Of a DNA stretch of 64,000 nucleotides, positions 40,551 to 42,933 are shown piece after piece (the stretch's first letter is position 1; each line of letters starts with the position of its first letter). This DNA comes from Nitrospinaceae bacterium (lineage in GTDB: Bacteria > Nitrospinota > Nitrospinia > Nitrospinales > Nitrospinaceae). The translations under genes were made by a program, and so were the position numbers. The stretch is from positions 62,001-126,000 of the forward strand of contig JANQEK010000006.1 of assembly GCA_028278405.1 (NCBI GenBank). The letters are read 5' to 3'. A model generated the notes under the pieces. It saw nothing but the letters and a program-made list of their open reading frames with translations. It was not told the origin of the DNA and made no database searches.

Positions 40551-40578
40551 TTGACACCCCCCGTATTTTTGCTAGAAT
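40551..40578 (+). promoter_or_regulatory. Near-consensus sigma-70 promoter for the Usp/PCP_red gene
   Basis: TTGACA (40551-40556), a 16-base spacer rich in C then T, and TAGAAT (40573-40578). Transcription would start near 40585, giving a leader of about 118 bases. Confidence 0.75.
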
Positions 40579-40702
40579 TCGCAAGCAATTGACACTGTTG
40601 GTTTTTCCGGGTGTTTTACCCCCCTCCAGCAGACAGAGTTTTCGATTTTCCTTCTAATGAATAATTCAAATTAAGTATATAGATTAGGGAGAGACAAACC
40701 CC

Positions 40703-42763
40703 ATGTTTAAGAACATTTACATTCCAGTCGATAATTCCGACTATTCGAATGCCTGCGTGGATGCGGCTTTGGAGTTTGCCAAGGGGTCGGAGGACACCGT
40801 TGTTACGGCGAGCCACGTGTATGCGGCCAAAATGCACGATGTCCGTTTCCGCCAAATGGAAAGCGGTTTGCCTGAAGAATATCAGGACGAGGAGGAGCTT
40901 GAAAAGCAACGGGCAATCCACGATCAGCTCATTACCAAGGGAATGGAAGTCATTACGGATTCTTATCTGGATGTACCGAAATACAAATGTAAAGCCCGTA
41001 ACATTCCATTTGTCGGCAAATCTCTGGAAGGGCGAAACTGGATCGAGTTGGTCAGGGATATCAAAGAGTCGAATTATGACTTGGTAATCATGGGAGCCTT
41101 GGGCCTGGGTGCGATCAGGGACAGTCAAATGGGTACGGTGACCGAACGGGTCATCCGCCGTATTCAGACCGATACACTGATCATCAAGAATGTACCCGCC
41201 ATCCACGAACAGAAACCTTCCAGCGACAAAATTGTGGTGGCTGTGGACGGCAGCGGCCAGGCTTACGGAGGTTTGAAAACGGCAATAGACATGGCGAAAG
41301 CTTTAAACAAGCCGTTGGAAGTGATCTCCTCTTTCGACCCGTATTTTCATTACGCCATGTTCAACAGTTTGACCGGGGTTCTTTCCAAGGATGCCGCCAA
41401 GGTATTCAAGTTTGAGCAACAGGAAAAACTGCACGAAGATATCATCGACAAAGGTCTTGCCAAAATTTATCAATCCCATCTGGAAGTTTCCCGAAAAATG
41501 GTAGAGGACGAGGGAATGGAATGTACCATTCGCTTGCTGGACGGCAAGGTGTTCGAAAAAGTCCTGCAGTATGCCCGGGAAGAAAATCCCTATATGTTGA
41601 TTCTTGGTCGTATCGGCGTACACAGTGCCCCGGATATGGATATCGGAGGCAACACGGAAAACCTGCTTCGTATGGTGCCTTGCAACGTCTATCTCTCCAG
41701 TAAGGTTTACAAGCCGCCGGTTGACATGATTGCGGAAGAAAGTATTGACTGGACGGCTGAAGCGAAGGAGCGTCTGAAGAAGATTCCCGGATTTGTACGC
41801 CCGATGGCGACCTCTGCAATTTTACGCTACGCCCTGGAACGGGGTCACAGCATGATCACCTCTGGTGTTATTACCGAAGCCTGTGAAAAAATTCTGCCCG
41901 CGGGCGCGATGCAGGCCATGTACGGCATCGGTGACCAGATGCGTGAAAAAATTGCCAAGGGCGAAGATCCTCTGGAAGGCATGATCGAAGACCGGAGCCG
42001 GGCGATGGAGAAGAAGTTTGCTGAGGAAGTCGCCAAGGTTCAAGAGCAGGAGCAGAAAGTTCAGGATCAAAAAACGCTCAAATGTAACGAGTGCGGTACT
42101 ATCGTACCCGAAGATGTTGTGAAATGTGGTGTCTGTGGCGCCGGTGCCGAGAGCCTGTTTCCCATGGACAAATCTGGATTTGAGGCCAGTAGTGAGGAGC
42201 AGAGCGATTCGACTACGGTGACCACCTTTGACTCGGTTCAGGTGACGTGGACTCAGGATGCTTTGGATTACCTCAACCAGTTTCCTGAAGGTCATATTCG
42301 GAGACGCGCCCATGCCAGAATCGAGAAAAACGCACGGGTGCAGAAGGTTTCCACCATTTCAGTTGCTTTTGCCAAAGAACTGCTCAACGATAATCAGGCA
42401 AAGGATGCCGAATCGGGGAATGGAAATGGCAACGGTCATAAAGCGACGGAGCAACCCGCGGAAGGTTTTAAGGCTTACGGAGATTTGCCTAAATTCGAGG
42501 GGAAAAATTTCAGTAAAGGTGTAGAAATTGATCCTGCTGAATACTTCTGGTCTGATGAAGCGATTGGGCGGGTGGAGAAAGTGCCTCAGGGTTTCATGAG
42601 AGACAATACCATGGAACGGGTCTTGGATTATGCGCATTCCCAGAACACCAATCATATCAGCCTGGAATTCTGTGAAAAGGGTATTGAGGAATCCGTCAAG
42701 GTCATGAACGAAATGGTCAAAAACGGAGCGACTTTGGAAGATTTTCTCCCGCAAAAAAAATAG
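40703..42763 (+). CDS. Universal stress protein fused to a zinc ribbon and three PCP_red domains
   Basis: A 686-residue cytosolic multidomain protein. Residues 1 to about 165 and 174 to about 337 are two Usp domains (MFKNIYIPVDNSDYSNACVD; KIVVAVDGSGQAYGG). A rubredoxin-like zinc ribbon has cysteines at 461, 464, 475 and 478. Three copies of the small C-terminal domain of light-independent protochlorophyllide reductase (PCP_red) start at W350 (WTAEAKERLKKIPGFVRPM), W516 (WTQDALDYLNQFPEGHIRRR) and W616 (WSDEAIGRVEKVPQGFMRDN). A Gly/Asn linker separates the last two. No photosynthesis gene is nearby. The function is unknown; redox or stress sensing is an inference. GGGAGAG precedes the ATG. Confidence 0.88.
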   Translation: MFKNIYIPVDNSDYSNACVDAALEFAKGSEDTVVTASHVYAAKMHDVRFRQMESGLPEEYQDEEELEKQRAIHDQLITKGMEVITDSYLDVPKYKCKARNIPFVGKSLEGRNWIELVRDIKESNYDLVIMGALGLGAIRDSQMGTVTERVIRRIQTDTLIIKNVPAIHEQKPSSDKIVVAVDGSGQAYGGLKTAIDMAKALNKPLEVISSFDPYFHYAMFNSLTGVLSKDAAKVFKFEQQEKLHEDIIDKGLAKIYQSHLEVSRKMVEDEGMECTIRLLDGKVFEKVLQYAREENPYMLILGRIGVHSAPDMDIGGNTENLLRMVPCNVYLSSKVYKPPVDMIAEESIDWTAEAKERLKKIPGFVRPMATSAILRYALERGHSMITSGVITEACEKILPAGAMQAMYGIGDQMREKIAKGEDPLEGMIEDRSRAMEKKFAEEVAKVQEQEQKVQDQKTLKCNECGTIVPEDVVKCGVCGAGAESLFPMDKSGFEASSEEQSDSTTVTTFDSVQVTWTQDALDYLNQFPEGHIRRRAHARIEKNARVQKVSTISVAFAKELLNDNQAKDAESGNGNGNGHKATEQPAEGFKAYGDLPKFEGKNFSKGVEIDPAEYFWSDEAIGRVEKVPQGFMRDNTMERVLDYAHSQNTNHISLEFCEKGIEESVKVMNEMVKNGATLEDFLPQKK

Positions 42764-42835: not shown

Positions 42836-42882
42836 AAACCCCTGTTTCGTCGTAGTATCTATGGCGGCAGGGGTTTTTCTTT
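42836..42882 (+). terminator. Intrinsic terminator after the Usp/PCP_red gene
   Basis: AAACCCCTG (42836-42844) pairs with CAGGGGTTT (42868-42876) across a 23-base loop, followed by TTCTTTCCC. A small extra palindrome TCCAACC-TC-GGTTGGA lies at 42782-42797. Confidence 0.75.
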
Positions 42883-42933
42883 CCCTTTTATTTCACCTTC
42901 CTAAATTCTTCCACTACAGCTTATAATACTTGG

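Follow-up and report, generated by a model that had tools for sequence, protein, structure and literature searches.

A universal stress protein with three PCP_red domains as a tentative candidate regulator of late haem synthesis in Nitrospinota and Nitrospirota

A protein encoded in a Nitrospinaceae genome joins two universal stress protein (Usp) domains to a rubredoxin-like ribbon and three copies of PCP_red, a domain known as the tail of the dark chlorophyll enzyme, although the Nitrospinota and Nitrospirota that carry this Usp-PCP_red protein do not photosynthesize. The domain is also present on two likely haem-making enzymes, and Usp-PCP_red therefore probably helps to control haem synthesis. 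More specifically, we tentatively favor, at somewhat less than an even chance, a reading in which Usp-PCP_red binds ATP, responds to stress and acts on late haem synthesis as a regulator or scaffold, and PCP_red is a general module of tetrapyrrole pathways. The main nitrite oxidizers of marine and fresh waters belong to these two phyla; their energy metabolism relies heavily on haem proteins, and the findings point to an unrecognized haem-control system in the two phyla. We know of no function assigned so far to PCP_red, and no report on PCP_red outside phototrophs, on the BchB C-terminal domain or on Nitrospina haem synthesis was found among the open-access papers searched; its presence on two unrelated enzyme types for one haem step, together with an operon-linked stress protein, provides a concrete function to test.

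The window, which is the whole stretch of 64,000 nucleotides that was analyzed, contains the gene and its signals as follows, with the evidence for each in parentheses.

40551..40578, + strand: promoter of the sigma-70 type, TTGACA-16-TAGAAT with extended -10 (11 of 12 consensus matches)
40686..40693, + strand: ribosome-binding site AGGGAGAG (sequence; kept in most relatives)
40703..42763, + strand: Usp-Usp-PCP_red-rubredoxin-like-PCP_red-PCP_red gene, start codon ATG, 686 aa (ORF, Pfam and homologue conservation)
40703..41188, + strand: Usp domain 1, residues 1-162 (Pfam, tandem Usp fold, ATP motif G-2x-G-9x-G-[ST])
41222..41698, + strand: Usp domain 2, about residues 174-332 (Pfam, ATP motif, tandem Usp fold)
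41750..41881, + strand: PCP_red copy 1, residues 350-393 (Pfam 3e-15; PDB 2KRU, 2L09, 2XDQ_B)
42074..42142, + strand: CxxC-x10-CxxC ribbon of probable rubredoxin/rubrerythrin type, residues 458-480 (Pfam, invariant Cys, homologue matches)
42248..42370, + strand: PCP_red copy 2, residues 516-556 (Pfam 1.9e-5; hhalign; fold)
42548..42676, + strand: PCP_red copy 3, residues 616-658 (Pfam 8.1e-4; hhalign; fold)
42836..42885, + strand: intrinsic terminator, 18-bp interrupted stem with U-rich tail (hairpin prediction, z -5.8)

The dedicated promoter and terminator proposed in a sequence-only reading of this DNA both withstood analysis: the promoter is recognizable in nine of 10 aligned relatives (L044-L048, L050, L053, L056 and L074), and the terminator hairpin (42836-42876, -24.6 kcal/mol) is followed by U-rich sequence. 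The gene appears to be monocistronic in this genome and, as that reading had also stated, no photosynthesis gene was recognized near it. Moreover, the nitrogenase-like family Oxidored_nitro (PF00148) has no match in the protein or in its genome, which therefore lacks DPOR (BchB/BchN). The closest named relative, from a Nitrospinaceae MAG, is 93% identical over the protein. A homologue with 66% identity occurs in L085, a MAG labeled Gammaproteobacteria, which is probably a mislabeled or contaminated bin.

Searched as a whole against Pfam, the protein matches Usp (PF00582, 5.2e-30) in two stretches and PCP_red (PF08369, 4.9e-27, 94.1 bits) in three. The earlier assignment of three PCP_red domains holds, but a profile search of the single segments is enough only for the first: copy 1 alone scores 56.4 bits (3e-15), above the gathering cut-off of 32.5 bits, whereas copies 2 and 3 alone, at 25.0 bits (1.9e-5) and 19.8 bits (8.1e-4), fall under it. 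Among PDB sequences, copy 1 matches 2KRU (the BchB PCP_red domain), 2L09 (Asr4154) and ChlB/BchB chains. Copies 2 and 3 align by hhalign with copy 1 at 97-98% and with the PCP_red groups of the radical SAM, HemQ, ribbon and triple-PCP proteins at 96.0-98.9% probability. All 31 homologues of the protein match PCP_red, and the starting Trp and other core residues of each copy are invariant among these sequences from both phyla. For the segment with copies 2 and 3, modeled by AlphaFold2 (pLDDT 73), Foldseek ranked 2L09 and 2KRU first and second at probability 1.00, with an rmsd of 1.1 Å to 2KRU; 2YNM_D, the B chain of DPOR, was matched at probability 0.95. The short length of the domain keeps the Foldseek E-values at only about 0.03. 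Profile alignment and modeling confirm copies 2 and 3 as genuine PCP_red domains with a predicted three-helix fold. This fold was better tested on the C-terminal piece than on the full-length model, for which the search was dominated by Usp matches and transporter C-terminal domains. The next fold matches of the C-terminal piece are the C-terminal lids of RuvB and other AAA+ proteins, and, judged from the model, these lids and PCP_red may share a common small helical fold.

The PCP_red domains of BchB/ChlB (DPOR; 2KRU, 2L09, and within 2XDQ, 3AEK and 2YNM) have the same profile and three-helix fold as those of Usp-PCP_red, and the two share the invariant W...P-x-F-x-R...[IV]-[TS]. In contrast to BchB/ChlB, three copies are here attached to a Usp protein, and the genome has neither a nitrogenase-like subunit nor DPOR. 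In 191 copies from seven groups and four structures of the BchB or Asr4154 type, the residues W, P, F, R and A together with [IV]-[TS] form a near-invariant core, and no His or Cys is conserved. PCP_red is therefore unlikely to hold a cluster or to ligate haem iron; the simple reading of it as an Fe-S or haem-ligating domain was rejected, and the earlier suggestion of a cluster link is not supported for the domain itself. The companion suggestion of a link to a cofactor receives strong, if indirect, support from the fusion of PCP_red to haem enzymes of the HemQ type and the AhbD/NirJ type.

PCP_red was surveyed in 77 Nitrospinota and 296 Nitrospirota genomes. It is present in 73/77 of the former, the more complete genomes typically having 8-9 domain copies, and in 165/296 of the latter, many of which have 11-12 copies and others one. 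With the domain this widespread in Nitrospinota and no nitrogenase-like gene in the present genome, PCP_red as a remnant of photosynthesis was rejected. The combination of Usp and PCP_red occurs across both phyla in variable copy number, such that the triple copy noted earlier is true of this protein but is not a universal trait: relatives have one, two, three or five. This genome contains five PCP_red genes. Besides Usp-PCP_red, they encode a ribbon-PCP_red protein (adjoining a gene for an Mrp/ApbC-type NTPase), a triple-PCP_red protein, and two fusions in which PCP_red is C-terminal on a radical SAM/SPASM protein and N-terminal on a protein of the HemQ type. Proteins consisting almost solely of PCP_red repeats have three to four copies. 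In public annotation, PCP_red proteins of these kinds may be labeled "PCP reductase family protein" or similarly. Fusions in relatives extend to a haem-oxygenase-like domain (PF14518) with a rubredoxin-like domain, and to 2Fe-2S. A single protein, L141:5182-6609, combines PCP_red, a rubredoxin-like domain, two further PCP_red and PF14518, a separate PF14518 gene lies between two PCP_red genes in L180, and in the protein of L190:5588-6103 a 2Fe-2S ferredoxin domain is joined to a segment that matches PCP_red weakly, at 27.1 bits against a cut-off of 32.5.

The two Usp domains recognized earlier are borne out by Pfam and by fold, tandem Usp structures being the top matches of the full-length model (pLDDT 72.8). 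The tandem Usps Rv2623 (3CIS), TTHA0350 (3AB8) and UspE (5CB0) likewise have two Usp domains per chain and the ATP-binding motif, with TM-scores to the Usp-PCP_red model of 0.62-0.78 when normalized to the targets. Usp-PCP_red differs from them in the long helices that follow strand 2 of each Usp domain, in invariant His at positions 38, 45, 73, 216, 244 and 307, and in a C-terminal extension of 350 residues. The ATP motif of domain 1 is present in 31/31 homologues, while that of domain 2 ends in GG in Nitrospinota, including this protein, and in GS in the Nitrospirota homologues. The six His are retained even in distant relatives with one PCP_red, and a D-P-x-x-H stretch in the Usp domains (40703-41698) is invariant in both phyla. 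These features look unusual for Usp proteins and may form a site for a metal, haem or a nucleotide.

The ribbon had been taken for a zinc ribbon, and its four cysteines (C461, C464, C475 and C478) are indeed invariant in the 31 homologues, but the zinc part of the name did not survive. No zinc-ribbon family exceeds its cut-off in this protein (best 16.9 of 25 bits with the whole protein, 21.6 with the segment), and the rubredoxin-like domain of rubrerythrin, PF21349 (RUBY_RBDX), is matched instead in 9/31 homologues, where generic zinc-ribbon matches are weaker. A structural zinc ribbon was accordingly replaced by probable rubredoxin ancestry, and "rubredoxin-like ribbon" is the better name. 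The CxxC...CxxC knuckle resembles that of PF21349, which Nitrospirota homologues match at up to 4.8e-14, whereas the ribbon described here has lost much of the family signature; it matches PF21349 weakly (9.4 bits; cut-off 26.5) and otherwise only weak zinc-ribbon models.

The two enzymes that bear PCP_red provide the case for haem. HemQ-PCP_red is the only PF06778 protein in this genome, and its nearest solved relatives are coproheme decarboxylases (6.5e-26). Alignment to structures indicates that it keeps the catalytic Tyr, distal His and proximal His of these decarboxylases (HemQ/ChdC). The position 13 residues after the proximal His, where the Arg of chlorite dismutase (Cld) would sit, is Asn; Cld has H114 and the distal Arg R127 (PMC9751292), and in the absence of that Arg a chlorite dismutase was rejected. 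The protein scores under the NCBIfam HemQ cut-off of 235, which counts against the haem-control reading. A ferrochelatase is also encoded in this genome. The radical-SAM-PCP_red protein has its best NCBIfam matches to NirJ2 (327 bits) and AhbD (318 bits), both under the equivalog cut-offs of 500, which again counts against haem control; a relative in L146 reaches 457 bits to AhbD (cut-off 500). Its cysteines C30/34/37 and C239/264/282/320/323/329/332/350 are invariant among 18 sequences, and the spacing C-24-C-17-C-37-C-2-C-5-C-2-C-17-C fits the full AhbD motif given in PMC10452713, CX3CX2C plus CX20-33CX17CX36-37CX2CX5CX2CX17-35C, such that radical SAM and a full SPASM Cys pattern are common to both. 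According to the same source, AhbD makes haem b from Fe-coproporphyrin III, as does HemQ (PMC9751292), and PCP_red is thus shared by two enzyme types that are unrelated but perform one and the same step. The paralogous or linked enzymes described here differ from AhbD and HemQ/ChdC in bearing an extra PCP_red, of which, on AhbD, the accessible part of PMC10452713 makes no mention. That HemQ-PCP_red and radical-SAM-PCP_red act on these substrates is predicted. Nine sampled genomes have no PF06778 match (G071, G073, G076, G094, G088, G160, G150, G323 and G322), and all nine have the radical-SAM-PCP_red gene. This is consistent with a substitute route in these genomes, although a protoporphyrin route is also possible in them and the three from Nitrospinota are only 81-86% complete.

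Gene order ties Usp-PCP_red to the second of these enzymes. The Usp homologue is present in 134 of the 296 Nitrospirota genomes, that of the radical-SAM protein in 137 and both in 123, and in 118/123 the Usp-PCP_red gene lies directly upstream of the radical-SAM-PCP_red gene on the same strand, with a gap of <=150 bp in 106 of these 118 pairs; the genomes are related, and the pairs are not 118 independent events. In the remaining 5/123 the two genes are on separate contigs. Three Nitrospinota genomes (L139, L146 and L147) likewise have the two genes side by side. In the Nitrospinaceae, including this genome, the two genes are not adjacent, which counts against the haem-control reading. A shorter Usp gene, without room for PCP_red, occupies the same operon position in G322 and G323, which suggests that the link between Usp and enzyme may be older than the fusion of Usp to PCP_red.

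Collectively, these data are consistent with a model in which Usp-PCP_red, a soluble protein that combines a Usp tandem with three PCP_red and a rubredoxin-like knuckle, would tune or buffer the last step of haem synthesis. The PCP_red array would engage, by a hydrophobic face and the conserved Arg, the same porphyrin as the PCP_red tails of the haem enzymes or, alternatively, the same partners. Given the lack of a conserved His or Cys, any contact of PCP_red with a porphyrin would rely on hydrophobic residues or Arg; otherwise the domain would serve for docking. The Usp part would sense ATP or stress, the ribbon may sense redox state or metal, and dependence on ATP and the direction of regulation are likewise predicted. 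The 2Fe-2S fusions and the CxxC-ribbon PCP_red proteins beside Mrp, which are not obviously tetrapyrrole enzymes, count against haem control, as does the absence of a conserved His or Cys from PCP_red.

A different use of the same array, which we consider unlikely but a serious competitor, is that PCP_red is a homotypic docking or oligomerization domain that binds no pigment, and that multi-PCP_red proteins, including Usp-PCP_red, are scaffolds for tagged enzymes. The proteins composed almost entirely of PCP_red repeats, the range of one to five copies on the Usp protein, the many unrelated enzymes tagged and the lack of a conserved ligand residue would all be expected of such a domain. A neutral scaffold would not, however, predict that the most clearly tagged enzymes are biased to porphyrin substrates, namely the HemQ-type and AhbD-type enzymes and BchB, whose substrate is also a porphyrin. 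It is likewise rather unlikely, in our estimate, that PCP_red handles porphyrins in general, as a module older than chlorophyll synthesis or escaped from it. In this reading it would tag, in two phyla with many nitrite oxidizers, both the peroxide-dependent HemQ route and the radical-SAM, AhbD-like route from Fe-coproporphyrin III to haem b, and Usp-PCP_red would be a hub, sensitive to ATP and redox state, that binds the intermediate common to both and directs it to one or the other.

An improbable alternative is Fe-S delivery or low-potential electron transfer, in which PCP_red would dock to P-loop NTPases of the NifH/BchL/Mrp type or to small Fe-S or rubredoxin proteins. BchB has the NifH-like BchL as its working partner, rubredoxin-like and 2Fe-2S fusions of PCP_red occur, and in three distant genomes (L009:6841-8250, L195:8157-9865 and L180:13311-15068) a gene for an Mrp/ApbC-type (NUBPL) NTPase adjoins a CxxC-ribbon PCP_red gene, the pair being a second conserved PCP_red operon. 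However, HemQ-type enzymes bear PCP_red without having an Fe-S cluster, and in the operons read no NTPase gene is tied to the pair of Usp-PCP_red and radical SAM. That the linked radical SAM enzyme is instead a maturase of peptides or another cofactor, of the PqqE kind, with Usp-PCP_red as its substrate or partner and haem uninvolved, is very doubtful: its nearest relatives among solved structures are PqqE and SkfB and eight-Cys SPASM motifs are widely shared, but its NirJ2 and AhbD scores are well ahead of those to mycofactocin (139 bits) and PqqE (113 bits) maturases, the L146 relative is closer still to AhbD, and HemQ bears PCP_red too.

Other genes also neighbor Usp-PCP_red in Nitrospirota. 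A gene for a small CopD/DUF4149-like membrane protein follows Usp-PCP_red or the Usp/radical-SAM pair at L197:7768-8283 and L182:11628-12071, with weak similarity to UPF0093 in one of the two. Just upstream of Usp-PCP_red, L197:12032-13687 encodes a radical SAM protein of the B12-binding kind, a relative of the slr0320 family of photosystem II acclimation proteins (446 of 775 bits).
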